From Chloroflexales bacterium ZM16-3 (lineage in GTDB: Bacteria > Chloroflexota > Chloroflexia > Chloroflexales > Chloroflexaceae): 64,000 bases of DNA. Positions within the stretch are counted from its first letter, which is position 1. Every line of letters begins with the position of its first letter. Location of the stretch: assembly GCA_004138175.2 (NCBI GenBank), contig RYFE02000014.1, positions 1-64,000 of the forward strand. The letters are read 5' to 3'. A model generated the notes under the pieces. The model saw only the letters and a program-made list of their open reading frames with translations, was not told the DNA's origin and searched no databases. Below are positions 2,699-29,762 of this stretch, piece by piece. Made by a program: the position numbers and the translations under genes.

Positions 2699-2713
2699 GT
2701 TGCCGCCGGACAG

Positions 2714-2850: not shown

Positions 2851-2876
2851 GTATACGAACCCTACGAAGGAAATCC

Positions 2877-5800: not shown

Positions 5801-8800
5801 CCGTATCTACATGGGGCGATCCGCCACCCCCTACGCCCTCTCCCTTATCGCCCGCAGCGGCGAGGAGCTGCGGCGCGAGCTACGGTTCGCCCGCGCTGGC
5901 GTCGCCGCCGCCTTCGACCATGGCCGCGACTGGGAGACGCCCCTGGGCAGCTGCTTCAGCGCCCGCCCGCTCGGCCCGCAGGCCGGGCTGGCCTTCGTCT
6001 ACCCCGGCGCGTTTAGCGCCTACCCCGGCCTCGGGCGCGAGCTGTTCCAGCTCTTCCCCAAGCTGCACGCGCGCATGGACGAGCTGCTCGCCGATGCGCC
6101 CGCCGTCCTCGGCGAGCACAAGCTGTACCCGCGACGCCAGCACGCGCCGACGCCCGCCGACATCGGCCAGGATAAGGCGGCCCTGCGCGGCGACCCGCTG
6201 GGCATGATCCAGGCCAGCCTGAGCTTTAGCCTGCTACTCACCGCCGTCCTGCGCGAGCAGTTTGGCCTGCGGCCCCAGGCGGCCCTCGGCTACAGCATGG
6301 GCGAGGCGAGCATGCTCTGGTCGCTCGGCGCGTGGCGGGCCGATGACACCGCCCTCCAGCGGCTGCGCGAGTCGCCGCTGTTCACCCGCCGCCTGACTGG
6401 CAGGCGCGAAGCTGCCCGCGAGTACCTGGGCGTATCTGCCGACGGGCCGGACGACGTTTGGTGTATCTACATCGCCCAGGCCACGCCCGAGGCCGCCCGC
6501 GCTGCCCTATCCGGCGAGGGGCGGGCATTCCTGACCCTTATCAACACGCCGGGCGAGGTGGTGATCTCTGGCGCGCCCGATGCCGTGCAGCGGGTGATCG
6601 CCGAGCTAGGCTGCGAGGCGTTCCGCGCGCCCTTCGACACGGTAATGCACTGCCCGGCCATGCACTCCGAGTACGAGCTGCTGGTCGAGCTAAACCGCCT
6701 GCCGATGGACGAGGCCCCCGGCATCACCTTCTACGGCGCGGCCGACTACGCCCCGCTGCCGCAGGACCCCGAGCAGATCGCCCAATCCCTGGCCCGCGCC
6801 ACCTGCCAGCCGGTCGACTTCCCGCGCCTGGTCGAGCGGGCCTACGCCGACGGCGCACGGATCTTTGTTGAGCCCGGGCCAGCCAGCGCATGCACCCGCT
6901 GGGTCGGCACGATCCTGGCGGGCAAGCCCCACGTCGCCCTCGCCCTTAACCGCCAGGGCTCCGACGACGCCGCGAATGTGCTGTCCGTGCTGGCCCGCCT
7001 CGTCACCCAGCGCGTGCCGCTCGACCTGACAGCCCTGCTGCCGGCCGAGCCGCCGCCCGCCCCGGCGCGATCCCTGGTCAAGACGATCACCCTCGGCGGC
7101 GGCGACATCCCCGCCGCCCTGCGCGGCGAGCGGGGCAGAGCAATCTTGGTGGCCGGGCGGCCCTCACCCCCCAGCCCCCTCTCCCGCTGCGGCGGGAGAG
7201 GGGGGGCCGAGCATGTTTTGGAAGAGAAGGAGTGTCCTGTGCTGGAAGAAACGCCCGTGGCCGTCCCGCCCACCATCGCCGGCCACCGCGCCCTGCTCCA
7301 GCGCCGCCACGCCGAGCTGCTGGCTGTGGCAGATCGATTGCGGGAGAGTCCCGCCAGCACGGCGGGCGCTCAAGCTGAAGCTCCCCCTCTCCCGCCGCAG
7401 CGGGAGAGGGGGTCGGGGGGTGAGGGCCAATCCCTCCCCATTATCTGGGACACCGCCGAGCTGCTGGAGTTCGCCGAGGGCGACATCGCCAGGGTCTTCG
7501 GCTCCGAGTACGCCGTTATCGACGGCTACTCGCGCCGCGTGCGCCTGCCCCTGCCGCCCTACCTGCTGGTCAGCCGGGTGACGAAGCTGGACGCCCGTCG
7601 CGGCGAGTTCAAGCCCTCCACCGTCACCACCGAGTACGATATCCCTCATGATGCGTGGTACTCGGTCGATGGCCAGCCGCCGCTCGCCATCGCCGTCGAG
7701 TCCGGCCAGTGTGACCTGCTGCTGATCAGCTATCTGGGGATCGACTTCTCGTGCAAGGGCGAGCGGGTCTACCGCCTGCTCGACTGCACCCTAACCTTCC
7801 TCGACGAGCTGCCCAAGGACGGCGAGACCCTGCGCTACGATATCAGCATCAACTCCTTCGCCCAGAGCGGCGACACGCTGCTCTTCTTCTTTAGCTACGA
7901 GTGCTTCGTGGGCGAGCGCATGGTGCTGAAGATGGACGGCGGCTGCGCCGGGTTCTTCACCGACGCTGAGCTGGATGGCGGGCGCGGCGTGGTCGACTCG
8001 CGCGACGATATCGCCCAGCGCCGCCGCGCTATCCGCCAGACGTTTGCCCCGCCGCTGCGCACGTTCCGCCGCTCGCTCAGCGATGCCGACCTCGACCTGC
8101 TGATCGCCGGGCGGATCGCCGCCTGCTTCGGCCCGGCCTACGACCAGCGCGGGCGCAACCCCTCGCTACGCCTGCCCGCCCGCCAGATGCTCATGCTCAA
8201 CCGCGTGACCAGCATCGACCCGCAGGGCGGCAACTGGGGGCTCGGTCTGGTGATCGGCGAGCAGGATCTGACCCCCGAGATCTGGTTCTTCCCCTGCCAC
8301 TTCAAGGACGACCAGGTGATGGCTGGCTCACTGATGGCCGAGGGCTGTAGCCAGCTGCTCCAGATCTACATGCTCTCGCTCGGCCTCCAGGCATACACCT
8401 TCGACGCCCGCTTCCAGCCGGTGCCGAACGTCTCCCAGGTGGTCGTCTGTCGCGGCCAGGTGCTGCCCTGCACCGCGGTTATGACCTATCGACTGGAGGT
8501 GACGGCGCTCGGCCTGGAGCCGCAGCCCTACGCCTACGCCAACATCGACGTGATCCTGGACGGGCGGGTGGTGGTGCGCTTCCGCGATCTGGCGCTCCAG
8601 CTCACCGAGAAGAACCCACAGGTCGCCCCGCCCCTCGCCCTGGAGCGCCCCGCCACCGCGCAGCCGCCGCGCTACGACGAGGCGGCCATCCAGCAGTTCA
8701 CCACCGGCTCGATCGCCGCCTGCTTCGGCCCCGAGTACGCGATCTACAACAGCCGCCGCGCCCCGCGCAACCCCAACGGCGACCTCCAGCTGATCAGCCG

Positions 8801-9800: not shown

Positions 9801-9819
9801 GCGTACGTTATTGTACAGT
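9790..9819 (+). promoter_or_regulatory. Sigma-70-type promoter of yefM-yoeB
   Basis: TTGACA at 9790-9795 and TACAGT at 9814-9819 are 18 bp apart. The -35 box overlaps the last codons of the synthase gene, and the -10 box overlaps the first half of the YefM-type operator. Confidence 0.6.
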
Positions 9820-9831
9820 ACTCCTGTACAA
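9811..9831. promoter_or_regulatory. YefM-type operator palindrome
   Basis: TTGTACA and TGTACAA form an inverted repeat with a 7-bp spacer. The TGTACA core is the known recognition word of YefM-YoeB repressor complexes. It covers the -10 box and ends just before the ribosome site AAAGGAG, which fits autoregulation. Confidence 0.7.
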
Positions 9832-9844
9832 AAGGAGCCTCGCC

Positions 9845-10132
9845 ATGACCATTCAGACAACCTATACCCAGGCCCGCGCACAGCTCGCCAGCCTGCTCGA
9901 TCAGGTTACGAATGACCGCGAGATTGTGATCGTGCAGCGCCGTGGCGCAGAGGATGTCGCGATGATTGCAGCGGATGAGCTTGCCGGTCTATTAGAGACG
10001 GTTCACCTGCTGCGATCACCAGCGAATGCAGAACGCCTGCTGAACGCGCTCAACCGGGTTCGCCAGCGCACCGGCACACCACAGACGCTCGAACAGCTGC
10101 GCGCTGAGGTTAACCTGCATGACGCCGAGTGA
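9845..10132 (+). CDS. yefM: YefM/Phd-family antitoxin
   Basis: This 95-residue protein starts at ATG 9845, seven bases after AAAGGAG. The N-terminal half has the Phd/YefM fold signature: TYTQARAQLASLLDQV, then VIVQRRGAEDVAMIAADELAGL. This part binds DNA as a dimer, and the C-terminal tail (TLEQLRAEVN) would wrap the toxin. It overlaps the yoeB start by 14 bases, the usual tight coupling of the pair. A promoter and operator precede it, so it should be expressed apart from the synthase. The family neutralises YoeB and represses its own operon. Confidence 0.88.
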   Translation: MTIQTTYTQARAQLASLLDQVTNDREIVIVQRRGAEDVAMIAADELAGLLETVHLLRSPANAERLLNALNRVRQRTGTPQTLEQLRAEVNLHDAE

Positions 10133-10400
10133 CCCGCATAGGCAGCGTGACGCCATATTTCAGACTGAGTTTCGTGAAGATCTGCGCTACTGGATTGAAA
10201 CGGAGCGACGCACCGCACTGCGTGTGCTGACGCTGGTCGAAGCAATCATGCGCGATCCCTTTGACGGAATTGGGAAGCCAGAGCCGCTCAAGTATATGGG
10301 GGCAGGTGTCTGGTCACGCCGGATTACCCAAGAGCATCGCTTGGTGTATGTCGTCAGCAATGATCGGATCGATTTCGTTCAAGCACGTTATCACTATTGA
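10119..10400 (+). CDS. yoeB: YoeB/Txe-family mRNA interferase toxin
   Basis: The 93-residue protein overlaps yefM by 14 bases. The core EDLRYWIETERRTALRVLTLVEAIMRDPFDGIGKPEPLK is followed by WSRRITQEHRLVYVV and the C-terminal ARYHY, which matches the conserved end of YoeB with its catalytic histidine and tyrosine. YoeB enters the ribosomal A site and cuts mRNA during translation. The gene ends only 10 bases before pfaD, so the pair sits inside what would otherwise be an uninterrupted pfa gene row. Length is close to the E. coli protein (84 residues), with a slightly longer N-terminus. Confidence 0.88.
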   Translation: MTPSDPHRQRDAIFQTEFREDLRYWIETERRTALRVLTLVEAIMRDPFDGIGKPEPLKYMGAGVWSRRITQEHRLVYVVSNDRIDFVQARYHY

Positions 10401-10410
10401 GGATTAGCAT

Positions 10411-12033
10411 ATGCGCGAGCGTAACGCCGCACTCAGCGCCGGGCCAGCGGCCATGCCCGGCCAGGGATGGGAGGGCCCACAGAGCGATATCGCCTTCGAC
10501 GCCGCAGGCATCCGCGAGCGGCTGGCCGACCTGGCACGGCCCTGCTTCATCGTCCGCGCCGGGGGGCGGGTCGGGCTGACATCGGCGGGCCAGCCGACCT
10601 ATGGCCAGCCCGTGGGCGGCGCGGAGCTGCTCGGCGCGCTGCCGCCGCTGCCAATCGAGCAGCTTGGCGACCCGGCCTTCCGCGCGGCCCACGGGCTGCG
10701 CTACGCCTACGCCGCCGGGGCTATGGCGGGCGGGATCTCATCGGTCGAGCTGGTGATCGCCCTCGGCCAGGCTGGTATGCTCGCCTCATTCGGGGCCGCC
10801 GGGCTGGTACCCGCCCGCGTCGAGGATGCCATCCAGCGCATCCAGGCCGCGCTGCCCGCCGGGCCATACGCCTTCAACCTCATCCACAGCCCCAGCGAGG
10901 AGGCATTGGAGCGCCGCGCCGTCGAGCTCTACCTGCGCCACGGCGTCCGTACCGTCGAGGCGTCGGCCTTCCTCAGCCTGACCCCGCACATCGTCCATTA
11001 TCGCGCCGCCGGGCTGAGCCTCGACCCCGCCGGGGCGATCACGATCAGCAACCGCGTGATCGCCAAAATCTCGCGCCGCGAGGTGGCCGAGCCGTTTATG
11101 CGCCCGGCCCCCGACGCCATCCTCGCGCCGCTGGTGGAGGCGGGCCTGATCACGCCGATCCAGGCCCGCCTAGCCGCCCAGGTGCCCATGGCCGACGACA
11201 TCACCGTCGAGGCCGACTCGGGCGGCCACACCGATAACCGGCCCCTGGTCTGCCTGCTGCCCTCGATCATCGCCCTGCGCGACGAGATCCAGGCCGAGCT
11301 GGGCTACCCGCAGGCCGTGCGGGTCGGCGCGGGCGGCGGGATCGGCACACCCGCCGCAGCCCTAGCCACCCTCATGATGGGCGCGGCCTACATCGTCACC
11401 GGCTCAGTCAACCAGGCATGCGTCGAGTCGGGGGCCTCGCCCCACGCCCGCAAGCTGCTGGCCCAGGCCGACATGGCCGACGTGATCATGGCCCCGGCCG
11501 CCGACATGTTCGAGCTAGGCGTGAAGGTCCAGCTGCTCAGGCGCGGCACCTTCTTCCCCATGCGCGCCCAGAAGCTCTACGACACCTACCAGAAGTACGC
11601 CTCGCTCGACGACATCCCGCCCGCCGAGCGCGAGCAGCTAGAGCGACAGATCTTCCGCAAGCCGATCACCGAGATCTGGCAGGAGACCGAGGCATTCTTC
11701 GCCGAGCGCGACCCCGACCAGATCCGGCGGGCGGCTGACAACCCCAAGCGCAAGATGGCACTGGTCTTCCGCTGGTACCTGGGTCTGTCGTCGCGCTGGA
11801 TGACCAGAGGCGAGCCGGGCCGCGAGATGGACTACCAGATCTGGACTGGCCCGGCCATGGGTGCCTTCAACGACTGGGCGCGCGGCTCCTACCTGGAGAT
11901 GCCCGAAGCCCGCCACGCCGCCGACGTGGCCCGCCATCTGCTCACCGGCGCGGCCTACCTCTACCGGGTTCAGCAGCTGCGGGCCTATGGCGTGGGCATG
12001 CCGGCCGAGCTGGGCAGCTACCGACCGGGGTGA
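10411..12033 (+). CDS. pfaD: PfaD-like trans-acting enoyl reductase
   Basis: The 540-residue protein starts at ATG 10411 with GAGGA seven bases upstream. It is a TIM-barrel FMN enzyme of the 2-nitropropane dioxygenase/FabK type: YAYAAGAMAGGISSVELVIALGQAGMLASFGAAGL near residue 90, the substrate histidine region DSGGHTDNRPL, and the phosphate-binding RVGAGGGIGTPAAALATLMMGAAYIVTGS. The family reduces enoyl-ACP intermediates in trans for PUFA synthases. The length and the C-terminal DYQIWTGPAMGAFNDW region match PfaD and the related trans-AT PKS reductases. In the pfa context the job is well supported. Confidence 0.93.
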   Translation: MRERNAALSAGPAAMPGQGWEGPQSDIAFDAAGIRERLADLARPCFIVRAGGRVGLTSAGQPTYGQPVGGAELLGALPPLPIEQLGDPAFRAAHGLRYAYAAGAMAGGISSVELVIALGQAGMLASFGAAGLVPARVEDAIQRIQAALPAGPYAFNLIHSPSEEALERRAVELYLRHGVRTVEASAFLSLTPHIVHYRAAGLSLDPAGAITISNRVIAKISRREVAEPFMRPAPDAILAPLVEAGLITPIQARLAAQVPMADDITVEADSGGHTDNRPLVCLLPSIIALRDEIQAELGYPQAVRVGAGGGIGTPAAALATLMMGAAYIVTGSVNQACVESGASPHARKLLAQADMADVIMAPAADMFELGVKVQLLRRGTFFPMRAQKLYDTYQKYASLDDIPPAEREQLERQIFRKPITEIWQETEAFFAERDPDQIRRAADNPKRKMALVFRWYLGLSSRWMTRGEPGREMDYQIWTGPAMGAFNDWARGSYLEMPEARHAADVARHLLTGAAYLYRVQQLRAYGVGMPAELGSYRPG

Positions 12034-12043
12034 GTGTCGAGTA

Positions 12044-12790
12044 TTGAGTGCGTCACCCAATCTGCAATCTGCAATCTACAATCTGCAATCTGCGCTAGGC
12101 GGCGAGGTTCACCTCTGGCTGATAGACCTAGCCGCCGCCGCAGATAACCTCGGCGCGCTGGCGCAGACCCTCAGCCCAGACGAGCGGGCGCGCGCCGAGC
12201 GGCTGCGCGTGCCGCTGGCCCGCGAGCGCTTTGTGGCGGCACGCGGCGCGCTGCGGGCGAGCCTGGCCCGCTACGCGGGGGTGGCCCCAGCCGCGCTGCG
12301 CTTCCGCTATGGCCCGGCCGGTAAGCCCTACCTCGACGGCCCACTCAGCGATGCGATCAGCTTCAACCTGGCCCACTCAGATCATCTGGCGCTGCTAGCG
12401 GTGTCCAGTGGCAGTGCCCGCGTCGGCGTCGATATTGAGATCGTCGGCGACGCAGACCACGAGATGATCGCCAGCCGGTTCTTCGCCCCGGCCGAGCGGC
12501 GCGCCCTCGACGAGCTGCCGCCCGATCAGCGGAGAGACGCATTCTATCGCTGTTGGGTCTGCAAGGAGGCATTCGTCAAAGCACGCGGCGAGGGACTGGC
12601 CCTAGCCCTAGACCAATTCACAGTAGACGTAGCGCCCAGCGCACCCGCCGCCTTGCTCCATATCGACGGCGACCCAGACGAGGCCGGGCGCTGGCGACTC
12701 GCCGCCCTAACCCCGGCGGAGGGCTTTGTCGCCGCGTTGTGCCTTGAAAGGCGCGAGCAGAGCGAGAGCACTGAGCAGATGAGCCACTGA
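12044..12790 (+). CDS. Sfp-type 4'-phosphopantetheinyl transferase
   Basis: About 248 residues. The enzyme attaches the phosphopantetheine arm of CoA to the synthase ACPs, the role called PfaE in other clusters. Visible motifs are KPYLDG, FNLAHSDHLALLAV, the Mg-binding VGVDIE, and FYRCWVCKEAFVKARGEGL with the W-x-x-KEA signature. The start is uncertain. An upstream ATG would overlap pfaD by 170 bp, with a frame-shadow composition. The first plausible codons after the pfaD stop are TTG 12044 and CTG 12062 or 12083, all within or beside a heptanucleotide tandem repeat. Homology begins only at about 12107 (VHLWLIDL). It follows pfaD directly and probably shares its transcript. Confidence 0.88.
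   Translation: MSASPNLQSAIYNLQSALGGEVHLWLIDLAAAADNLGALAQTLSPDERARAERLRVPLARERFVAARGALRASLARYAGVAPAALRFRYGPAGKPYLDGPLSDAISFNLAHSDHLALLAVSSGSARVGVDIEIVGDADHEMIASRFFAPAERRALDELPPDQRRDAFYRCWVCKEAFVKARGEGLALALDQFTVDVAPSAPAALLHIDGDPDEAGRWRLAALTPAEGFVAALCLERREQSESTEQMSH
12058..12092. repeat. Heptanucleotide tandem repeat, five units of CAATCTG
   Basis: Five adjacent 7-bp units (the third is CAATCTA) lie between pfaD and the conserved part of the phosphopantetheinyl transferase. Because 35 bp is not a multiple of three, a change in unit number would alter any upstream start frame. Confidence 0.85.
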
Positions 12791-12816: not shown

Positions 12817-13194
12817 TCAATCATTCCGCTCAGCGCTCTCGTCACCCAGCACAGCAAGAAGATCCTGGACGCTGGGAATGAGATCTGGGCGGGCGCGCAG
12901 GGCATCGGCGATCTCGGCGATCTGCCCCTCCGGCGGGGTGGCGGCGGACAGCGGGAGGAACGCAGCCACGGGATGACCGAGGGCGGCGGCGATATCGAGT
13001 AGCAGGGCGATAGAGATGGCGCGCTCGCCGCCCTCGTAGCGCGACATGCTCTCGCGTTTCACCCCGAGACCAGATGCGAGCTCCTCCTGAGTCATCAGGC
13101 GCGCGAGACGCAGGTCGCGCACCCGCCGAGCTACATAGCGCGCAACCAGTACGTCGCGGGATCGCCGGCGGGACGAGGTAGGATCGCCGCTCAC
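12817..13194 (-). CDS. XRE-family helix-turn-helix regulator
   Basis: A 125-residue protein with a Cro/CI-type domain at about residues 20-80: VRDLRLARLMTQEELASGLGVKRESMSRYEGGERAISIALLLDIAAAL. The short acidic C-terminal tail has no recognised domain. The start ATG overlaps the stop of the antirepressor-like gene by four bases, so the two are co-translated. A repressor plus antirepressor pair is typical of phage or mobile-element switches. Inverted sequence elements around the operon promoter (14051-14067 and 14135-14151) are candidate binding sites, implying autoregulation. Confidence 0.85.
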   Translation of the reverse strand: MSGDPTSSRRRSRDVLVARYVARRVRDLRLARLMTQEELASGLGVKRESMSRYEGGERAISIALLLDIAAALGHPVAAFLPLSAATPPEGQIAEIADALRARPDLIPSVQDLLAVLGDESAERND

Positions 13195-14036
13195 AACAGG
13201 CGCTCCTGGCGCTGCGGTAAGGCATCGGGGTCGTCCGGCAGCAGGGCGCGGGCCTGCGCCTCGATCCAGTCAAGGGCCTGCTCATACTTATGGGCGGGCA
13301 GCGCATCATAGCGAGGGGTGCCCATCGCCTTGCAGAACTGGGCGAAAAGCATGGCGTAGCGCTCATTGCCAGTGCGCTGCTGGTAGCGAACCGCGACTCG
13401 CTTGATCGCCCGTTTGATCGCCTCCTGCTGCGCCGGTGCGACAGCAGTGTGCTGGAGAATCTGCTGCTGAAGGTCATCGACGACCGTCTCGACTGCATCG
13501 AGGCGCGCATCCTGTACAGCCTCGCCAGCCCGCTGCTCGCGCAGCAGCTCGCGCGTCAGGCGTAGCTCAACCAAAAGATCATCGAGGCGACGCTCCAGAG
13601 CCGCCACCGCCGGGTCAGATGAAACAAGCCGCGTAGGAGCAAGCTCATCGCCATAAAGCCGGTTAAGCACATCGACCAGATCGGTCTGATAGCGAACTAG
13701 CTTCGGCCGCATCTCCCCGGAAACCTGGCCAGGGGTCACGGTGGCCAACCAGAAGGGAATATAGCGGCTCAGGATAGCAACCACAACCTGGAGCTTCCCC
13801 CCTTGGGGCATACGCACCTCGCGCAGCCCAGCGACGAGGACATCGTGCTCGCGCAGCCGCTGAAGCTGGTAGCGCGGGTCGAGCCCAAGAGCCTGGCATG
13901 CCGCCCGCACCGGCAGCGCAGCGCCATCCCCATCCAGGATCACGGCGACCAGCTGATCGCCATCGAACGCGACATCCTTGAAGGCGGGGCGGCGCTGCGG
14001 CAGACGCGGCAGCGATTCGTCGGATAAAGGGTCCAC
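13191..14036 (-). CDS. Phage antirepressor-like protein (P22_AR_N type)
   Basis: A 281-residue protein. Residues about 20-130 match the phage antirepressor N-terminal family: VAFDGDQLVAVILDGDGAALPVRAACQALGLDPRYQLQRLREHDVL, followed by a region on maintaining IPFWLATV and lysine-rich KLVRYQTDLVDVL. The middle (about 140-210) is likely coiled coil, with AALERRLDDLLVELRLTRELLREQ. In phage, such proteins bind a repressor or DNA to release the lytic switch; in chromosomes they pair with XRE regulators. It is first in a two-gene operon with its own promoter. No other phage genes are nearby, so it is probably a domesticated or satellite remnant. Confidence 0.75.
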   Translation of the reverse strand: MDPLSDESLPRLPQRRPAFKDVAFDGDQLVAVILDGDGAALPVRAACQALGLDPRYQLQRLREHDVLVAGLREVRMPQGGKLQVVVAILSRYIPFWLATVTPGQVSGEMRPKLVRYQTDLVDVLNRLYGDELAPTRLVSSDPAVAALERRLDDLLVELRLTRELLREQRAGEAVQDARLDAVETVVDDLQQQILQHTAVAPAQQEAIKRAIKRVAVRYQQRTGNERYAMLFAQFCKAMGTPRYDALPAHKYEQALDWIEAQARALLPDDPDALPQRQERLL

Positions 14037-14563: not shown

Positions 14564-15304
14564 ATGCGTCCAACGGAGATGGAACAGCAGCTCGATCCAA
14601 AAACTCTCCGCATGGTGGAGAAGTTCGCGAACCGCCGCTTCCAGAGTACGAGAGCAAACCAGCGCCTACGTTTCGTGATGTCGTGGTGGGTGATCCGCAA
14701 CAAGGTCGTGGGCAACCTCAAGCGCGCGCTCGACATAAGCGTGGCGCTCGTGGCAATTATCCTCAGCTCACCGCTCATGCTCCTCACCGTCCTAGCGATC
14801 AAGCTCGACTCGCCCGGCCCAGTCCTCTTCCGCCAGACTCGCGTCGGCAAAGATGGCGAGCACTTCCCCTGCTACAAATTCCGCTCGATGTATATTGACG
14901 CTGAACAGCGTAAGGCAGAGTTGATGGCCAAAAACGAGGCCGACGGCCCCGTCTTCAAGATGAAGAACGACCCACGGATCACCAAGGTGGGCCGGATCAT
15001 CCGCAAGCTGAGCATTGACGAGCTACCACAGCTCTTTAATGTCCTCAAAGGCGAGATGAGCCTCGTCGGGCCGCGCCCGGCCCTCCCGAGCGAGGTTGCC
15101 AAGTATAACTACGACCAGATCGGACGGCTCCACGCAATCCCAGGTATCACGGGCCTCCAGCAGGTCTCTGGCCGCAGCGAGGTAGACTTTAAGCGCTGGG
15201 TCGAGCTCGATCTCCAGTACATCTCCGAGCAGAGTATCTGGAAGGATCTCGAAATTCTTATCAAGACCATCCCTGCCGTACTGTTCAGCAAAGGCGCGTA
15301 TTGA
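14564..15304 (+). CDS. Undecaprenyl-phosphate sugar-1-phosphate transferase
   Basis: A 246-residue monotopic phosphoglycosyl transferase of the bacterial sugar transferase family. An N-terminal basic stretch (about residues 1-45) precedes a membrane re-entrant helix (ALDISVALVAIILSSPLMLLTVLAIKLDS). Catalytic motifs follow: FRQTRVGKDG, YKFRSM, the acidic LSIDELPQLFNVLKGEMSLVGPRP and PGITGLQQVSGRS. The enzyme loads the first sugar phosphate onto undecaprenyl phosphate at the inner membrane, which starts repeat-unit assembly. Only this catalytic half is present, as in PglC-like short forms, without the WbaP five-helix N-terminus. It is the first gene of the locus after a long non-coding gap. Confidence 0.92.
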   Translation: MRPTEMEQQLDPKTLRMVEKFANRRFQSTRANQRLRFVMSWWVIRNKVVGNLKRALDISVALVAIILSSPLMLLTVLAIKLDSPGPVLFRQTRVGKDGEHFPCYKFRSMYIDAEQRKAELMAKNEADGPVFKMKNDPRITKVGRIIRKLSIDELPQLFNVLKGEMSLVGPRPALPSEVAKYNYDQIGRLHAIPGITGLQQVSGRSEVDFKRWVELDLQYISEQSIWKDLEILIKTIPAVLFSKGAY

Positions 15305-15311
15305 GGAATAT

Positions 15312-15376
15312 TGAATGCTGAATGCTGAATGTTGAATGTTGCATTCAACATTCAACATTCAACATTCAGCATTCAT
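15312..15376. repeat. Inverted heptanucleotide tandem repeat between transferase genes
   Basis: Four units of TGAATGC/T (15312-15339) are followed after two bases by five units of CATTCAA/G/T (15342-15376). The arms are reverse complements and can form one long hairpin in the 84-bp leader of the downstream gene, ending 12 bases before its ATG and so next to its ribosome site. Confidence 0.85.
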
Positions 15377-15388
15377 AGAGGGGCTCTG

Positions 15389-17056
15389 ATGCGCAAGCTG
15401 CTCGTTGTTCTGGGAGTGCCGGTCGATAATCTGACCATGGAGGAGGCTCTGGATCGCTGCGATGAGTTCATCGCCGTGGGCCGGGCCACTGGGCGCACCC
15501 ACCAGATCGCGACCGTGAACGCCGACTTTGTGGTGAACTCGCTCCATGACCCAGAGCTTCAGCGGATTCTGCAGGAGTCCGATATGGCTACTGCAGATGG
15601 TATGCCGCTGGTGTGGGGTGCCCGCATGCTCGGCGGTCGGCTGCCAGGTCGCGTCACTGGCGCAGATATGGTGCCGGCCCTGGCCCGCCGCGCCGCGCAG
15701 AAGGGCTACTCGATCTTCTTCCTGGGTGCCCGCGAGGGAATCGCCGCGCAGGCCGCCGCAATCCTCCAGGGGCACAACCCAGGCATGCAGATCGCTGGGG
15801 TGCTCTCGCCGCCGCCACGCTCGATCCTCGACATGGATCGCTCGGTGGTCGATGCGGTGAAGGCCGCCAAGCCTGATATTCTGCTGGTGGCGTTTGGCAA
15901 CCCCAAGCAGGAAAAGTGGATCCGCATGTACGCCCATGAGATCCAGGTGCCGATCTGCATCGGCGTGGGTGGCACCTTCGACATGATTGTCGGCGTCACG
16001 AAGCGCGCCCCGGCATGGGTGCAGAAGATCGGACTGGAGTGGGCCTACCGCCTCTCGCAGGAGCCGCGCCGCCTGGCGAAGCGCTACCTGCACGACTTTG
16101 GCTACTTCGGGTATTTCTTCGCTCGCCAGTGGTGGGGCATGCGCCAGGGCACTGCTGTATCGATGAGGCCGACAGTCGCCCCAGAGCAGGTGCCTGCTGC
16201 GCCGCCGCCAGCGCCCCCGGTGCAGGTCTCCCCACCCCCTCCGCACCCAGCACCTCCAACCATAGCCATACCCGCTGTTCCAGAAGAGGAAACATCGCCA
16301 CAGGCGATCGCTGCGCTCGAAGAGCCGCAGGCCGCCGCCGCGCCGACAACAGTCAACAGCACCCCAGTGATCTACCTGCGCGGCAGGCTGGACATCAACA
16401 ACTATGAGGTGTTTGCAATCGAGGCGAACCTCATGTTTGATCAGTCGCCCTACCTGATCATTAATATGTCCGAGGCCACCTTCCTCGATAGCTCGGCGCT
16501 AGGCACCCTGGTAGCCCTCGCAAATAGGGCGCGGGCCGACGGCGGGGCGCTCTGGCTTGTCGAGATGCCCCCGCAGATCAAGAGCCTGCTCGCCCTAGTG
16601 CGCCTGGAGAATTTCTTTGAAGTGTACCCCGACGCCGAGGCCGCCGAGTTTAAGCGGCGTCAGTCTCCTCAGCCGGCGACCCCGCGCGCAACCGATAATG
16701 GCTGGAGCGTCATCCATATGCCGCGGATATTCGACGGCAACAATATCGAGGTCATCGTTGATCGCTGCCTAGCTGGCATCGAGACGAATCCACACCTGGT
16801 GATGGACTTCGGCGAGACGGTATTCATGTCCAGCGCCGGCATGGCCGCGCTGCTCAAGCTCGACCGCGCCGCCCGCGCAAAAAGCGGCGCGCTGCGAGTC
16901 GCGGATTGCTCCCAGGATCTGCTTCGCACACTGAAGCTCATCAAGCTCGATAATATTCTGACGATAGTGCCTGATGTAGCCACAGCGACAAGAGAACCGA
17001 CATCAGCAGCACCAGACCTCGCAGGGCTACGGATCATGCCCGCCGGCCAGCAATAG
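15389..17056 (+). CDS. WecG/TagA/CpsF glycosyltransferase fused to two STAS domains
   Basis: 555 residues from ATG 15389, preceded by GAGGGG. An upstream in-frame ATG lies within the heptad repeat and is not favoured. Residues about 1-240 are a GT26 enzyme: NADFVV, TADGMPLVWGARMLG, FGNPKQEKW and IGVGGTFDMIVG, then basic C-terminal residues for membrane contact. This family adds an N-acetylmannosaminyl or similar residue to the lipid-linked sugar. A Pro-rich linker (about 260-325) leads to STAS domain 1 (about 328-425), with the serine motif FLDSSALG at Ser368/369, and STAS domain 2 (about 435-535), with FMSSAGM at Ser481/482. STAS serines are phosphorylated by RsbW-type kinases. The neighbouring genes encode a STAS protein, a PP2C phosphatase and such a kinase, so the enzyme is probably switched by that system. 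I know of no common precedent for this fusion. Confidence 0.88.
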   Translation: MRKLLVVLGVPVDNLTMEEALDRCDEFIAVGRATGRTHQIATVNADFVVNSLHDPELQRILQESDMATADGMPLVWGARMLGGRLPGRVTGADMVPALARRAAQKGYSIFFLGAREGIAAQAAAILQGHNPGMQIAGVLSPPPRSILDMDRSVVDAVKAAKPDILLVAFGNPKQEKWIRMYAHEIQVPICIGVGGTFDMIVGVTKRAPAWVQKIGLEWAYRLSQEPRRLAKRYLHDFGYFGYFFARQWWGMRQGTAVSMRPTVAPEQVPAAPPPAPPVQVSPPPPHPAPPTIAIPAVPEEETSPQAIAALEEPQAAAAPTTVNSTPVIYLRGRLDINNYEVFAIEANLMFDQSPYLIINMSEATFLDSSALGTLVALANRARADGGALWLVEMPPQIKSLLALVRLENFFEVYPDAEAAEFKRRQSPQPATPRATDNGWSVIHMPRIFDGNNIEVIVDRCLAGIETNPHLVMDFGETVFMSSAGMAALLKLDRAARAKSGALRVADCSQDLLRTLKLIKLDNILTIVPDVATATREPTSAAPDLAGLRIMPAGQQ

Positions 17057-17091
17057 GTCACAGCTCGCTGCACCATCAGCAATACAAGACT

Positions 17092-18774
17092 ATGCAAGCG
17101 ATTATTCTCGCAACAAACGAGGAGCGCAAGCTCCCGCCTCTAACCGATACCATGCCTGGGCCGCTGATCCCGGTGATCGACCGTCCAGTGATGGCGATGA
17201 CGGTGGAGATCCTCGCCCGATCTGGACAGAAGCGTATCCTTATCAGTCTCTATAATCAGGGCGGGTCGATCGCAGCCTACTTTGGCAGCGGCAAACACTG
17301 GGGCGTCGATCTGGAATATGTTGCCCAGCGCGAGAGCTGGGGCTCGGCCGGTTCGCTCACTTGGGCGGGCCGCCTGCTCGACCAGACCTTTTTGGTGATG
17401 CCAGGGGACGCCCTGATCGATATCGATGTCGCGGCAGCGCTGGCATTCCATCAGGCCCACGGCGGCCCGGCAACGGTTATTCTCCACAGCCCGGTTCCTG
17501 GCAGCCGTGCCCCCCTGCGTCACCTTGGGCCAGATGCGCAGCTGGCCGAGACGGGCAAGCCCCTGAGTGTAACTGGTGCCTTCATCTTCGAGCCGAACGT
17601 GATCAACCATATCCCTGGGCGCAGCAAGCTCGATATTCTTGACGATCTGCTGCCAGCGATTGTCGCCGCAGGTGAGCCGGTGTACGGATTTCAGATGGCC
17701 GACTACTGGAGCCCGCTCGACACCCTAGCCTCGTTTCAGGAAGCCCAGCAAGTCGTGCTCTATAGCGCCTTTAAGGAGAACGCCCCGGAGATGTCCGCTG
17801 AAGGGCCGAGGGCGATAGTCCGCCATCCCTCGCTCAGCAGCCGCCAGATCGTGCCCGGAGTCTGGGTCGGCCTAAACCACTCGATCCACCCTAGCGTCAA
17901 GATCGCCGCACCCGTCTACATTGGTGAGAACAGCTATATCGGCCGCGAGGTTGAGATCGGTGCTGGCACGGTGATCGGCTCGAATGTCGTCATCGACGAC
18001 GAGGCGACCGTCAGCGGCAGTACGATCATGAGCGACACGTATGTCGGCCAGCTACTAAAAGTTGAGGGCCGGATTGTCACCGAAAAAAGCATTAGCGAAC
18101 CGGAATCGGGCGAGACGACAGAGGTTCTCGACCCCTTCCTGCTCAGCCGGGCGGGCACACAGAACGAAGGGCCGAACCAGTTCGCCCGCACTCTGAATAC
18201 AGTCGTGGCGGTGGCCCTGATTGCCATTTCTAGCCCGCCGATGATCCTCTTCTGGATCATAGCGCTCATCAGCAGCGTGGGCAGGCCGATCGCCCGCAAA
18301 TCACGGCTTGGCCAGCGAATCACCAACGCCGACGGAAGCCCTGGCCTGTATACATTCGACCTGCTCAACTTCCAGACTCGCCGACGGAACGGGGGCTACC
18401 TCCCTGGCGGGCGGTGGATGGAGCACTGGGAATTCAATCGCCTGCCAGAGCTATTTAATGTGCTGCGTGGAGACATGGATCTGGTGGGGGTCAAGCCGCT
18501 TCGGCCTGAAGATGCCGACCACCTCAACGAGGAATGGCACCAGAAGCGCCACGACGCGCGGGCGGGAATGACCGGCCTGTGGTACCAGGAAACAGATCCA
18601 AGCAGCGACCTAGATACCGTTATCATTGCCGATGTATACTATACCGCAACGCGCACATGGCGCAGCGACCTGATGCTGTTCCTGCGCACGCCATCCATCT
18701 GGGCACGTCGGCATCTCCGGCGTCACACGACGCCCAACGCCCTGATCCACGTCGATAACGTGGGAAACATGTAG
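17092..18774 (+). CDS. Nucleotidyltransferase, left-handed beta-helix and sugar transferase fusion
   Basis: A 560-residue protein. Residues 1-235 are an NDP-sugar pyrophosphorylase fold (MQAIILATNEERKLPPLTD, then PVIDRPVM, FLVMPGDALIDID). Its pyrophosphate loop is poor: the usual G-x-G-T-R-L is replaced by ATNEERKL, so activity is doubtful. Residues about 260-335 are hexapeptide beta-helix turns (VYIGENSYIGREVEIGAGTVIGSNVVI). Residues about 355-540 form a second phosphoglycosyl transferase-like unit with a membrane helix (TVVAVALIAISSPPMILFWIIALIS), FNRLPELFNVLRGDMDLVGVKPL and AGMTGLWYQE. The acidic pair of the active site reads EFNRLPE, unlike the IDELPQ of the first transferase. No clear ribosome site precedes it. 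The role may be regulatory or catalytic. Confidence 0.82.
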   Translation: MQAIILATNEERKLPPLTDTMPGPLIPVIDRPVMAMTVEILARSGQKRILISLYNQGGSIAAYFGSGKHWGVDLEYVAQRESWGSAGSLTWAGRLLDQTFLVMPGDALIDIDVAAALAFHQAHGGPATVILHSPVPGSRAPLRHLGPDAQLAETGKPLSVTGAFIFEPNVINHIPGRSKLDILDDLLPAIVAAGEPVYGFQMADYWSPLDTLASFQEAQQVVLYSAFKENAPEMSAEGPRAIVRHPSLSSRQIVPGVWVGLNHSIHPSVKIAAPVYIGENSYIGREVEIGAGTVIGSNVVIDDEATVSGSTIMSDTYVGQLLKVEGRIVTEKSISEPESGETTEVLDPFLLSRAGTQNEGPNQFARTLNTVVAVALIAISSPPMILFWIIALISSVGRPIARKSRLGQRITNADGSPGLYTFDLLNFQTRRRNGGYLPGGRWMEHWEFNRLPELFNVLRGDMDLVGVKPLRPEDADHLNEEWHQKRHDARAGMTGLWYQETDPSSDLDTVIIADVYYTATRTWRSDLMLFLRTPSIWARRHLRRHTTPNALIHVDNVGNM

Positions 18775-18802
18775 AATTTAAGCTGTTAAGGAGGCTCTCC
18801 AT

Positions 18803-19141
18803 ATGGAGATGAAGACTCGCGTTGCCGGTGACGTGAATATCCTGGAGATCTCCGGGCGCTTCGATACGAACACCGTCCCCCCAGTCGCCGCTTGGCTTGA
18901 GCAGGTCACGTCAGCACCGAAGTCGAGAGTGCTGGTTAACCTCGCAGAGACCACCTTTGTCGACTCGACGGCCCTCGCGACGCTCGTGCAGGGGCTCAAA
19001 CGCTGCCAACAGGTGCAGGGCGACCTCTGCGTCTGTAGCCTGAGACGACCCGTGTACATGATCTTCGAGCTGACCCGGCTAGACAAGGCATTTAACATCT
19101 TCGTCGATGAAGAGCACGCCCTACAATCCTTGAAAAGCTGA
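18803..19141 (+). CDS. STAS-domain protein, RsbV/SpoIIAA-like
   Basis: 112 residues, a single STAS domain: VNILEISGRFDTNTVPPVAAWLEQV, then VLVNLAETTFVDSTALATLVQGL. Ser55 in VDSTAL is at the position phosphorylated by RsbW/SpoIIAB-type kinases. The ribosome site AAGGAGG lies about 10 bases before ATG. In partner switching the unphosphorylated form binds the kinase and frees its other target. It sits between the STAS-fused glycosyltransferase genes and the phosphatase gene, and is probably the soluble competitor in the system. Confidence 0.9.
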   Translation: MEMKTRVAGDVNILEISGRFDTNTVPPVAAWLEQVTSAPKSRVLVNLAETTFVDSTALATLVQGLKRCQQVQGDLCVCSLRRPVYMIFELTRLDKAFNIFVDEEHALQSLKS

Positions 19142-19182
19142 TCGGAATATGGGCAAACCATGCGGGATGCCCAACATAAGCT

Positions 19183-20706
19183 ATGCTCGTTACCCTACTC
19201 AGCTCACAATACAAGCGTTTCGCAGCCATAGCTGAGGCGTGGTTAGCTCAGGGGGCCAGCGCCTTCGGAGTCTTTCAGGACGGACGCCCCCTGGTGTACT
19301 GGCCAGCCGGACATCGGCTGGCCATGCCAAGCATCACGGCACCGATCACGAAAGACGATGAGGAGATCGCCGACCTGCGCGTCGCCGGAATCAGTGGGAT
19401 GACCGCAGAGATCCGGCTCAAGGCCGACGCAGCCATGATCAGCTACATGCTCCAGCTCGAAAATGAGCTCCAGTGCATGACGGCCGACCTGGTGACGAGC
19501 CAGGATCAGCAGCTGTCGCTCTACCGGCTCACCCAGACAATGCGCAACCATATGTCTGTGGATGAGACACTCCAGGCGCTGGTGATCGAGGCGCTGCGAA
19601 TGACGAAGTTCCAGGCCGGGTTCGCCGTCTTTGTGCCCAGCAACGGGCAAGGGCCGCTCCTCATCCAGTCGGCCGAGAACTTCTTCGATGACGATGTGGC
19701 CTGGCAGATCTACTGGCATACCTTCTCGCACGAACATGATGCGATCTTGCCCGACCCAGAGAGCGAGTTGCCCTGCCCGAAGGGGGTTGAAAACCTGCTG
19801 GCCGTGCCGATCTGGGTGCGCGGCGGTGTGATGGCAGGGATGGGCCTGGCCAATCGGCCCGGCGGTTTTGGGACACCTGAGATCAAGCTTGTGCGGGCGA
19901 TAGCAGATCAGGCCAGCGCCCAGATCGAGCGCATGTTGCTCTACCAGGAGATGTTCGACCAGGCCAGGTTGCGAACCGAGATGGATCTGGCCCGACGGGT
20001 ACAGCTCGACCTGCTGCCGCGTCATCTGCCCAAGGTGGCGGGTATCGACCTCTATGCCAGCTCACGCCCGGCGCTCCAGGTGGGGGGAGACTTCTTCGAC
20101 TTCATCCTCGGCGAGGGGCGACCGATGATCTTCTCGCTCGGCGATGTGACCGGCAAAGGGCTCTCGGCGGCCCTGCTGATGACTATGACCCGCTCTGCCA
20201 TCCACAGCAAGGCCCAGTTTATGCCATTCCCAACACCTGAGGCAGTGATGCGCCAATCGAATGAAGATCTGTACAATGACTTCACACGGGTGGGAGTCTT
20301 CGCCACCGCCTTTGTCGGTCAGTACGAGCCGGGCAGCCAGCAGATGATCTACGCCAACGCCGGACACGCGCCAGTGATCTATCGGCCCTTCGATGGCAAG
20401 CCAGAGCTCCTGCGGGCCGACAGTACCGCAATCGGGATCCTCCCAGTAAGCCACTGCCGGGATCAGACCCTGCGTATGCACCCCGGCGACCTGCTGATCG
20501 TCGCCACCGATGGCTTTAGCGACGCCCGAAATCCACACGATGAGACGTTTGACATCGAACGCCTGATCGACCTTGTCGATCATCTCGCCCCACGAACTGC
20601 ACGCGAAATCGCTGATGCGATGTTTGAGACGGTTGATCGCTTCGGAGGGGGGCGCAACCAGGATGATGATCAGACCCTCGTGGTGATCAAAGGAGCAGCA
20701 TCGTGA
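19183..20706 (+). CDS. GAF-domain PP2C (RsbU/SpoIIE-type) serine phosphatase
   Basis: 507 residues. The N-terminal ~100 residues are a small sensory region (FGVFQDGRPLVYWPAGHRL) followed by a short helix. A GAF-like domain spans about 120-265. The SpoIIE-type PP2C domain covers about 280-505: LDLLPRHLPKVAGIDLYA, VGGDFFDFI, GDVTGKGLSAALLM, NAGHAP and LLIVATDGFSDARN, with the metal-binding aspartates present. This phosphatase removes phosphate from STAS serines. The stop overlaps the GTG of the kinase gene by four bases, so the pair is made together. The signal sensed by the GAF domain is unknown. Confidence 0.92.
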   Translation: MLVTLLSSQYKRFAAIAEAWLAQGASAFGVFQDGRPLVYWPAGHRLAMPSITAPITKDDEEIADLRVAGISGMTAEIRLKADAAMISYMLQLENELQCMTADLVTSQDQQLSLYRLTQTMRNHMSVDETLQALVIEALRMTKFQAGFAVFVPSNGQGPLLIQSAENFFDDDVAWQIYWHTFSHEHDAILPDPESELPCPKGVENLLAVPIWVRGGVMAGMGLANRPGGFGTPEIKLVRAIADQASAQIERMLLYQEMFDQARLRTEMDLARRVQLDLLPRHLPKVAGIDLYASSRPALQVGGDFFDFILGEGRPMIFSLGDVTGKGLSAALLMTMTRSAIHSKAQFMPFPTPEAVMRQSNEDLYNDFTRVGVFATAFVGQYEPGSQQMIYANAGHAPVIYRPFDGKPELLRADSTAIGILPVSHCRDQTLRMHPGDLLIVATDGFSDARNPHDETFDIERLIDLVDHLAPRTAREIADAMFETVDRFGGGRNQDDDQTLVVIKGAAS

Positions 20707-21137
20707 GCCTGCAGCACCCAGAGGTTATCCGGCTAGATCTGCCGGCCCGCTACGCCTACCTGCATATCCTCAGCGATTGCATCGCCGATATGCTGCGCCA
20801 GATCGATGGAGTCGAGGATCACGAGATGCTGACCTACAATATGCAACTGGCTGCCCACGAGGCTTGCACAAATATTGTTGGCCACGCGTACGACGGTGCC
20901 CAAAATGGCGACGAGCGTATCATTATCTCGCTCTCGCTCTTCCCGCAGCCGCGCCGGCTAGAGATCGAACTGCACGACACCGGAAAGCCTTTTAACCCAG
21001 AAGTCGTTCCGGCACCGAGCCTTGAGCAGGCGCAGATTCACGGCTATGGGCTCTTCCTCATGCGGAATCTGATGGACACGGTCACCTATACGTCCCAGAC
21101 AGGAGATAACTACTGGTGCCTGGTAAAAAATCTTTAA
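20703..21137 (+). CDS. Anti-sigma-type serine kinase (HATPase, RsbW-like)
   Basis: A 144-residue GHKL ATPase. The N box is AAHEACTNIVGHAYDG (Asn57), the G1 box ELHDTGKPFNP and the G2 region IHGYGLFLMRNLMD. It begins at GTG inside the phosphatase stop (GTGA overlap). RsbW-like proteins bind and phosphorylate STAS proteins; classical ones also hold a sigma factor. No sigma factor gene is in the window, which leaves the STAS-fused glycosyltransferase as an attractive local target. Confidence 0.9.
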   Translation: MSLQHPEVIRLDLPARYAYLHILSDCIADMLRQIDGVEDHEMLTYNMQLAAHEACTNIVGHAYDGAQNGDERIIISLSLFPQPRRLEIELHDTGKPFNPEVVPAPSLEQAQIHGYGLFLMRNLMDTVTYTSQTGDNYWCLVKNL

Positions 21138-21152
21138 GGGGGAGCGGCGGCT

Positions 21153-21563
21153 ATGACAACCATCCTAATCGTCGATGACTACGCGCCTAACCACCGACTG
21201 ATGAGCTTCGTCCTTGAACAGCACGGGTATGCGGTCGTGGCCGCCTATGACGGGGAGCAGGCGCTTGACCGCCTCAATAATGCAGCCATCGATCTGGTGC
21301 TGACGGATCTGACGATGCCGAAGATGGATGGCATGGCGCTGACCCGCGCCATCCGCGGCGATGCACGGTTCGCCGAACTGCCGATCATTATTGTCACCGG
21401 CAGCACCCGCGAACAGGATCATGTGCGCGCCAGCGGCATCGGCGTCAATGCGTTCCTGACGAAGCCGGTTGAATCTGAGGATCTGGTACACGAGGTGTCC
21501 ATCCTGATCAACCGGGACAAAACACCCCCTCCGCAGACGATGCTCCAGCCAAAGGTGGCCTGA
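21153..21563 (+). CDS. Single-domain response regulator receiver
   Basis: A 136-residue CheY-like receiver: ILIVDDYAPN, phospho-acceptor Asp52 in TDLTMPKMDG, VTGST and the lysine in FLTKPV. There is no output domain. It starts 15 bases after the kinase gene with GGGGGAG before the ATG, and should be in the same operon. No histidine kinase is nearby. It may feed an external two-component input into the partner-switching set. Confidence 0.92.
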   Translation: MTTILIVDDYAPNHRLMSFVLEQHGYAVVAAYDGEQALDRLNNAAIDLVLTDLTMPKMDGMALTRAIRGDARFAELPIIIVTGSTREQDHVRASGIGVNAFLTKPVESEDLVHEVSILINRDKTPPPQTMLQPKVA

Positions 21564-21643
21564 TCGCTTTTGACCGAATTGACACTGCAATTTTTCGCAC
21601 GTTCATAGAAGATTTATACAACCCAGATACTCTGCGATAAGGG

Positions 21644-21690
21644 AGATCGAGGGAGATCGGGGGGGGTCTCTCTCGATCTTTCTTTTTTTT
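21644..21690 (+). terminator. Intrinsic terminator (possible attenuator) just ahead of a glycosyltransferase gene
   Basis: A 13-bp stem (21644-21656 with 21667-21679, one G-T pair) is followed by TTCTTTTTTTT. Only 24 bases separate the T-run from the next start codon at 21714, and I see no promoter in between. Downstream genes therefore depend on read-through. Confidence 0.8.
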
Positions 21691-26364: not shown

Positions 26365-29300
26365 TCAATCTGGCGGGTCAGTTGTGCTGGGATGGCTTCG
26401 CCGCTTATACATATACGGCGAGCGGTAGCAGAGCGGAAACCGATACGTTAAGCGGGTAACATATAGCTTGTTACGTGCTAAAAGCAACGGTTTTACATTC
26501 TGTGGCTGCGCCTGATCCTCCACAATGCGCGGCTCTGGCCTTGGCGGAACTGCGCGCCCTCGCCGAACGAGTGTCTTCCGCCGATATGATCGCTGCTGTC
26601 CACCAGGAGGGAAGACATCGTCGCGTACCTGATGCCCGTGGCGCAGGTGCAGCTTCGTTGCGACATACTCCCAATACTTCCGTACGGACGCTTCGCTTAG
26701 GTTAGCTGCCTCGGCAAGTTCGCCAATGTCGAACCAGCGCTTGCCTTCCGCGAGCAGCCGTTGTGCCGCCTCGATAATACGGGTTCTTGCGGCATCCTGC
26801 CGACCGCTGTTGCTCTCGGGTGAGGTATGGCCCTCTCGGATGTGGGTGGGCGTGAGTCCCGGCAGCGGTAGCCCAAAGAGCAGGGTGATCTGCGCCTCTG
26901 GGTGGTCGAGCGGTCTTCCCCGCATAGCGCACTGAACCATCTCGGCCTCGCGCCGACTCTCAAGGAGCGCGGTGAGCCGGGGGTCGGCGAAGGTGGGAAC
27001 CTGTACAGCCCAGCGTGTCCCAGCTGCATCGTGAAGCACGCGGCTGGTGGTGATGATCTCCTCATCGAGCGGGGTGCCGTCATCTGCGAACAGCGCTCGG
27101 CCTTCGCGGATGATCGCCTCCATGTTGGGGTGGTAGACTTGGGCCAGGATGACGTCGTAGCCTTTGTAGGCGTTTGATCCGCGCAGCGCCCCGTAGTGGG
27201 CCACCTCGACCTGGGTGTGGCCGCGATTCGCCAGTGTCTGCCTCAGCCCGCTCTCGCACTCCAGGGTGCAGACGACGAGGGTCTGCCGGTCGGGTCTGAT
27301 CTGGGCTTCAACTTCGTCGTACCAGCGTTCTCTCCGATCACCGCGCAAGGTGGACTTAGCCCAGTCGCGGGTGATGATCTGGGATACCTGTGCCCCGCCA
27401 GCGATGTTCGGTCGCTCGATCTGGATGGGGGTGTCTGGGAAGATAGCGCGCAGCAGGTCGTCGCTCACGGTGGCGTCGAGCACAACCTTTGGCTGCTCGG
27501 GATTTGCCAGCTGGGCGATCATGTGGTCGATGCGCAGAAAGAGGATGAGCCTGCCGCCATTGATCTCGATGCGGCTGGTAAATGGCGTGCCGGACAGGTG
27601 GATGCGGCGCTCGTGGGCCAGCCGCTGGAGCAGGATGGCTAGGTAGTTCGGTGGGAGCGCCTCGTATTCGCTTATGCTGGCCCCCTGGGGGAAGCCGGGG
27701 AGCATCTGCTGTAGTTCCTCTGGGGGGAGGCTTGCGCAGGCTGCGTTGAGGGTTGTGTCGAGGCTAAGACCTTCATTGCGGGCGGCGGTGTCGAGTTCTG
27801 CAATGAGCATGTCGCCGCTGATGTGGCGATCACTGGTTCCGGCGAGCGTTATGCTGAGCCAGCGCAGGATGGCATGGGCGTGGGGGCTTGTGTCGGCCCG
27901 CCCCATCGCCGCTAGGTCGGCGCTGGTTAGGTGTACGATGCGGGTGAGCCGGGCTGGGTCGAACTCATCGAGGACGAGCACACCGGCTTCCTCCCACCAT
28001 CCGGTGGCCTGAAGCAGCGGCATCGGCGCAAAGAAGTTGGCGTCCTGCTTGAACTGTTGTAGGTAGATGCAGCGATCCACGAAGGGGCAGCGGCGCTGGC
28101 AGAGCGTGTCACGCACGCTGTAGCCCTTGGCGCTCAGTATCTGAGCTTCCCCATACTTATGGCAGTTGCTCGGGTTGCGCCCGTGGAGCGGCGTAATCTT
28201 TAGCCCGTCCTGGTCGTGAATCTGCTCTTTGCGCAGGGCCGTCCATGCGATCTTCCCAGGATCGCCTTGGCTGCTCGCCTGGTATTCGTTCAGGCCGATG
28301 ATCGTGTTGTGGCCCTTGCCTACGCCGGGCGGGTGGGCGAGCACAAGGAAACCCTCGCCTGCCTGGGCGTGATCCTGCACGCGTGATGCGATCTCGGCTC
28401 TGGCGTCGTCCAGGCTGATGGTGGCCTTCTGGGCTGCTTCTGCCGGGATGGGCTCGCCTTCAATGCGCTGCGGGCGGGCCCGGCGGGTCGGATATACCTG
28501 GGCTAGGGGGAGCTTCGCCGCTGTGAGCAGGTTGCGCGGCAGCGCGCGGTGGAAGTCGCGCAGGGTTGGCGCGGTGTCGATCAGGTGCTGGAGGCGTGTG
28601 GCGCTGTGTTCGAGCAGGAATGCGTCAAGGTCGGCCTTCTGCTGTCCAGGGGCGAGTGGTAGGCGCAGGACGCGCACTGTCAGACCGGCGGCGGCGAGGC
28701 GCAGTCCGTGGCGGATGCTCCATGTCTCCTCGGGGGATAGCTGGAGCACGCCGTCTTTGATCGGGCGAGGCCCGCTGTCATAGGCCAGGATGACGGTGCG
28801 CACGCCGCGTGCGCGCAGCTCGGCGGCCCACTCCTCGCGGATGTAGGACAGGCCGGGGTGGGCCAATGCCGGGATGCTCAGGCGCGTATTCTCGTATGCC
28901 TGGGTCACGGCCAGGGCTTTGAATTCGCCCTCGGTAAGGATGATCGTCTCTGCGCTGTCGAGGTCGTCCCATCCGAAGGGGAAGATCGCGCCGCGCTCGC
29001 TGTAGCCGCCAGGAAGGGATCGGTAGCCCTTGCCGGGGTAGCTGCGGGCGCGCAGGTCGACGATCTCCCCATTGGCAATGTAGGGAAAGATCAGGGCACC
29101 GCAGAGGTTGGGGTGGCCCCGCAGCGCGCCGTCATAGTCTCGCGTGAGGACGCCAGCCTCCTCTGCGAAGGGGAGCAGCTCAGGGCACTCGCGGCGCAGC
29201 AGATCTGGGATGGCCTGCGGGTCGCGCAGGGTGACGCCGAGCACATGGCGTCTGACGGTGGTATCGCTGATGCCGCGCTGGTTGATGTAGGCCAGCGGCT

Positions 29301-29661: not shown

Positions 29662-29727
29662 GGGAGCGCTTGTTCCAACCCCACTCCGCATGCAGGCAAC
29701 AAAAAGACAACGTGTAACACGAAGCTG

Positions 29728-29757
29728 TTGACACAGGGAGTCGGGGGATGGTATAGT
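29728..29757 (+). promoter_or_regulatory. Strong sigma-70-type promoter pointing away from the primase gene
   Basis: TTGACA (29728-29733) and TATAGT (29752-29757) are 18 bp apart. Downstream on this strand there is no gene before the terminator at 29860, so the transcript should be a short RNA. Confidence 0.65.
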
Positions 29758-29762
29758 AAAGG

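Follow-up and report, generated by a model that had tools for sequence, protein, structure and literature searches.

What does a partner switch control when no sigma factor is encoded beside it? The question is raised by a locus of Chloroflexales bacterium ZM16-3, within a stretch of 64,000 nucleotides (contig RYFE02000014.1, positions 1 to 64,000; hereafter the window), where genes for a free STAS protein, a phosphatase, an RsbW-type kinase and a receiver lie close to the gene for a WecG/TagA-type glycosyltransferase that carries two STAS domains at its C-terminus. We consider it rather probable that the kinase and phosphatase encoded nearby have this STAS tail as a client and that the output of the partner switch is the enzyme, gating commitment to one lipid-linked glycan. 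Many relatives share the arrangement, an indication that surface-glycan synthesis is regulated at the enzyme itself and not via gene expression.

The WecG-STAS-STAS protein and its operon

The fusion gene (15389-17053, + strand, as are all features of the unit described below) is one uninterrupted open reading frame of 555 aa. The original prediction, made from the DNA letters alone, described its product as a WecG/TagA-type enzyme with two C-terminal STAS domains, and Pfam confirms this, with matches to Glyco_tran_WecG (8.8e-60) and to STAS in two stretches (8.4e-26). The glycosyltransferase domain, of the WecG/TagA/CpsF family (GT26) and including the TagA C-terminal appendage (15389..16210), scores 201.8 bits against a curated Pfam cut-off of 27.4, and 146 against 69 with TIGR00696; its match to the TagA structure 7mpk in the PDB has an E value of 9.6e-41. 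A Pro/Ala-rich linker, variable in length in the alignment, follows (16211..16339) and is predicted to be disordered (pLDDT <50 at residues 250-317). STAS domain 1 (16340..16690, motif FLDSSALG) and STAS domain 2 (16697..17053, motif FMSSAGM) were each recognised by Pfam, by alignment and by model fold. Residue numbers count from the ATG at 15389; an in-frame ATG is also present upstream, at 15329, but the relatives begin at the later position.

In TagA, residues Thr37, Asp65 and Arg221 and the C-terminal appendage have been implicated in catalysis, and the appendage mediates activation at the membrane (PMC6493773). When aligned, T42, D70, R221 and R228 of the fusion correspond to T37, D65, R214 and R221 of TagA, and all four are invariant in 22 fusions. 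In the tail, S368 of STAS domain 1 and S482 of STAS domain 2 fall at the position of Ser58, the phosphorylated residue of SpoIIAA, and are thus the candidate phospho-acceptors among the serines named originally (368/369 and 481/482). S368 is invariant across the 22 aligned fusions, and S482 is present in all but one (at least 90%). In the structure model both domains fold like the anti-sigma-factor antagonists SpoIIAA and RsbV (Z about 14 to 18), which they match by sequence or fold; the folds also resemble RsbS, a STAS protein of the stressosome (RsbR/RsbS/RsbT). Since confidence in the model of the whole fusion is only moderate (mean pLDDT 69, pTM 0.41), the orientation of the domains was not used. 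Catalytic residues are intact in the WecG part and in the switch proteins described below, and both halves look functional. A sequencing or reading-frame artefact as the source of the fusion is ruled out, the fusion having been seen in 23 genomes.

The region 14564-21563 looks like a single transcription unit of seven genes, judged from their arrangement, with intergenic gaps of 84, 35, 28, 41, -4 and 15 bases in order. The first gene encodes an initiating polyprenyl-phosphate sugar-1-phosphate transferase (Bac_transf, EPS_sugtrans; 14564..15304; Pfam 1.4e-68, TIGR03025 above cut-off), which lies directly 5' of the fusion in most relatives. The fusion comes second. The switch genes had been described as following it directly; all four are present, although the next gene, omitted from that account, encodes a 560-aa nucleotidyltransferase/sugar-transferase with NTP_transferase, hexapeptide and Bac_transf domains (17092..18774; Pfam). 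This gene and the fusion were both missing in six genomes that were checked. Next come a free single-domain, RsbV-like STAS protein with the motif FVDSTALA (18803..19141; Pfam 4.9e-16, TIGR00377 above cut-off), which, like both fused domains, aligns a serine with SpoIIAA S58, and an RsbU-like phosphatase (19183..20706; Pfam 1.5e-41, alignment and model) composed of an N-terminal domain, a GAF domain and a SpoIIE/PP2C domain, whose aspartates D303, D321, D443, D495 and D496 are invariant in the alignment of relatives. The gene for the kinase, a serine kinase of the GHKL type (HATPase_c_2; 20703..21137; Pfam 2.5e-22), overlaps the phosphatase gene by 4 bases. Its product matches B. subtilis RsbW (PDB 6m36, 5e-08), with which it shares the sequence EACTN (an E-x-x-x-N motif), and among the models compared those of RsbW fit it best. 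A stand-alone response-regulator receiver (21153..21563; Response_reg, Pfam 1.8e-28) is the last gene, and a terminator-like hairpin of 20 pairs with a T tail (21639-21684) closes the unit on its 3' side.

Distribution of the fusion and its linkage to the switch

It had been proposed that other WecG-STAS fusions be sought and their association with RsbU/RsbW genes examined. The fusion was found, with its domain order kept, in 23 of the 61 genomes searched in the order, and an RsbW gene is linked to it in 25 Chloroflexota loci, 18 of them in Chloroflexales (one split over two contigs) and 7 elsewhere. Among the named matches are Candidatus Chloroploca mongolica, other Chloroflexales metagenome-assembled genomes (MAGs) and Anaerolineae-labelled MAGs. 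The same genomes also encode WecG paralogues that stand alone (about 250 to 300 aa) and lack STAS; the possibility that WecG is generally fused in this group is thereby rejected. The order transferase, WecG-STAS-STAS, nucleotidyltransferase/transferase, STAS, RsbU, RsbW, receiver is kept in Chloroflexales, in Anaerolineae-labelled MAGs and in other Chloroflexota MAGs. In two loci of another genus RsbW adjoins the fusion, and the free STAS, RsbU and receiver genes lie elsewhere. Besides the 25 linked loci, three are cut by contig ends and three, all from one genus, are unlinked; in this genus an operon of transferase, nucleotidyltransferase/transferase, STAS, RsbU, RsbW and receiver genes is retained elsewhere in the genome, next to a flippase-like gene, and the fusion, now apart from it, still has both serines.

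Could the adjacency be fortuitous? There are about 5 RsbW-type genes in 6.27 Mb, corresponding to a chance expectation of about 0.016 per 20 kb, so sparse that a kinase beside the fusion is not accounted for by chance; conservation of the neighbourhood across genera and classes likewise rules out chance adjacency of the fusion and the switch genes. The fusion and a close RsbU orthologue also occur together, the original prediction having named absence of the fusion from every relative with the switch genes as the finding that would count against it. That condition clearly does not hold: both are present in 21 of the 61 genomes, the fusion only in 2, RsbU only in 5, and neither in 33 (Fisher P about 1e-9 for the whole order and 7e-4 for the family alone, values uncorrected for shared ancestry). 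Of the two genomes with the fusion only, one (G010) has a more diverged RsbU and in the other (G026) the contig ends at the operon.

Proteins of the WecG-STAS or WecG-STAS-STAS type were also found in Verrucomicrobiota, Armatimonadota, Acidobacteriota and Luteimonas panaciterrae. In one Verrucomicrobiota locus (L111) genes for a STAS protein, a kinase-PP2C fusion and a receiver lie directly upstream of the WecG-STAS-STAS gene, and the same set is present within two others (L105, L115). The acceptor serine is kept in nearly all Verrucomicrobiota fusions; it is lost in 8/8 of the single-STAS fusions examined from Acidobacteriota and in most of the fusions from Armatimonadota, and no kinase gene was found in the fusion loci examined from these two phyla. 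Loss of the serine where no kinase was found agrees with regulation where the switch is present, a correspondence that is confounded by phylogeny. As to whether WecG-STAS fusions form an unrecognised, cross-phylum group of glycosyltransferases set by partner-switch serine phosphorylation, and thereby a sigma-independent form of control, we see the chances as evenly balanced.

Two further observations concern these loci. Eight WecG proteins, about 390 to 500 aa long and for the most part from Acidobacteriota (L108, L109, L114, L119, L126, L127, L128, L130), have a C-terminal extension that the profiles used did not recognise as STAS, and these extensions may be further degenerate STAS domains. 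Among the relatives there are paralogous RsbU-RsbW-STAS-receiver sets (L077, 8938-12055; L078, 8425-11365; L075; L076), some of which adjoin glycosyltransferase- or flippase-like genes, which suggests that partner switches are recurrently coupled to glycan loci; one relative has a partial receiver/RsbW duplicate between its kinase and receiver genes (L069, 7881-8165).

Proposed control of the enzyme and competing explanations

How might such a switch act on the enzyme? The initiating transferase encoded next to the fusion would make a lipid-linked primer, which the WecG/TagA domain would extend by the second sugar, committing the lipid to one glycan. The RsbW-type kinase would dock on the two C-terminal STAS domains and phosphorylate them, and the free STAS protein would compete with them for it. 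The GAF-PP2C protein would dephosphorylate the STAS domains, a reset placed under GAF input and probably receiver input, and a signal that shifts the kinase between the free STAS protein and the tail of the enzyme would open or close the committing step. In the fusion the TagA-type appendage directly precedes the STAS tail. Because the active site of TagA is complete only once this appendage has folded on the membrane, binding of the kinase there could plausibly keep the enzyme off, either by holding it away from the membrane or by stopping the appendage from taking its place in the active site. The domains, the conserved serines, the intact catalytic residues, the gene linkage and the wide conservation are what the analysis shows; binding, phosphorylation, the sign of control and the effect on glycan output are inferred.

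Direct switching of glycan assembly, the central claim of the original prediction, is the reading that conservation favours most, through gene linkage, the kept serines and co-retention, and is weakened by relatives that have the switch and not the fusion. Several observations weigh against it. Operon linkage alone is no proof of contact. Five genomes have a close RsbU and no detected fusion; in one of them (G018) the contig ends within the operon, so that true absence applies to four, which also lack the nucleotidyltransferase/transferase gene and retain STAS-RsbU-RsbW. In these four the set therefore has another use, and the fusion is not the sole possible client of the switch. STAS domain 2 has no aspartate ahead of its serine, and since the serines stand at a helix start in a fold-defining motif, their conservation could be structural. 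Most Verrucomicrobiota fusions have both serines and no kinase gene in the locus that was fetched. Finally, several sigma-70-family genes are present elsewhere in the ZM16-3 genome, so a transcriptional branch may exist as well.

The sigma factor question bears most directly on an explanation in which information flows in reverse, the fused STAS domains reporting the state of the pathway. Engagement of WecG at the membrane would make the tail bind or release the kinase, which would then act through the free STAS protein on a sigma factor or other target. Partner-switch modules do usually control sigma factors, the genome offers sigma-70-family candidates, and four relatives have retained the switch and not the fusion. 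The set was originally reported to lack a sigma factor, and indeed no sigma factor gene is found in the operon here or in the conserved gene order of the relatives, which leaves no room for one inside the operon. No SigB/F/G-type match was found on this contig, and none in the genome above the curated cut-off, and canonical SigB/F control was rejected on that ground. We therefore hold reverse flow to be quite unlikely. Extracytoplasmic function (ECF) sigma genes do occur a few kb from orphan switch modules at two loci (L159, L160), where, by eye, each appears to have its own anti-sigma gene.

A passive role for the tail is unlikely as well, if less so. STAS is a common docking fold, and the domains could oligomerise, bind lipid or dock onto initiating transferases, the switch controlling some other target and sharing the operon for co-expression; the Acidobacteriota and Armatimonadota fusions still have a STAS domain where the serine is gone, and Verrucomicrobiota fusions are mostly without a linked kinase. 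However, S368 is invariant where the kinase is linked, a second phylum also has the linkage, in modules that are laid out differently, and fusion and switch are both retained when physically separated. We give very little credence to a third arrangement, in which the free STAS protein would be the only output, binding the glycosyltransferase or an initiating transferase directly while the fused domains merely stabilise the complex. Its precedent is SiaD, an enzyme bound and activated by unphosphorylated SiaC; the conserved serines of the fused domains would be left unexplained.

Relation to known systems and other features of the window

The set resembles RsbU/RsbV/RsbW and SpoIIE/SpoIIAA/SpoIIAB in having a PP2C phosphatase, a STAS substrate and a HATPase kinase with matching motifs in one operon, and differs from both in lacking an operon sigma factor and in having two more STAS domains fused to a glycosyltransferase. 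Partner switching governs polysaccharide in SypE/SypA of Vibrio fischeri (PMC4517449) and HmpUVW of Nostoc (PMC8256260), and for SypA no sigma factor has been shown as the target (PMC4517449). SypA and HmpV are single-domain proteins, whereas the STAS domains of the fusion belong to the enzyme itself. The Verrucomicrobiota protein that joins kinase and phosphatase resembles SypE; in the window kinase and phosphatase are separate genes. SiaABCD of Pseudomonas aeruginosa (PMC8457831) likewise has an enzyme, SiaD, under the direct control of a small protein, SiaC, whose phosphorylation is set by a kinase and a phosphatase: SiaC binds and activates SiaD when unphosphorylated. There, however, the phosphorylated residue (Thr68) is in a protein separate from the enzyme, which is a diguanylate cyclase. 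In Caulobacter, HfiA gates the WecG-type enzyme HfsJ through its C-terminus (PMC3900383), as in our proposal a case of direct protein control at the C-terminus of a WecG/TagA-type committing enzyme; HfiA is a small inhibitor, however, and neither STAS nor a kinase or phosphatase takes part.

The joining of STAS to a glycosyltransferase has a precedent: Anabaena all4160, from a study of heterocyst envelope polysaccharide genes cited in PMC8256260, is described in the citing paper as a glycosyltransferase with an N-terminal STAS domain; in the fusion studied here the STAS domains are C-terminal. No description of WecG-STAS-STAS with a switch operon was found in the literature searched, whose coverage excludes most subscription journals, and within it no paper was found that combines WecG with 'STAS domain', or Chloroflexus aurantiacus with partner switching.

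For several of the partner switches that act on biofilm polysaccharide, no sigma-factor target is known. With the STAS domains covalently attached to the enzyme of the committing step, the target has a name and can be tested with purified proteins. If the proposal is true, sigma-independent control of surface polysaccharide gains a defined enzymatic target, and commitment to lipid-linked glycans is gated by protein phosphorylation in bacteria of several phyla, filamentous anoxygenic phototrophs among them.

Elsewhere in the window, adjoining the glycan operon, a protein with a P22_AR_N (phage antirepressor-type) domain is encoded at 13191-14036 (-). A PUFA/PKS-like (polyunsaturated fatty acid/polyketide) synthase cluster occupies 42-12790 (+) and comprises a KR-DH protein, a 2307-aa KS/AT/FabA protein, a PfaD-like protein and a phosphopantetheinyl transferase, with a YefM/YoeB toxin-antitoxin pair at 9845-10400 inside it. 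An open reading frame of 1138 aa at 26365-29781 (-) has no Pfam match at E 0.001.

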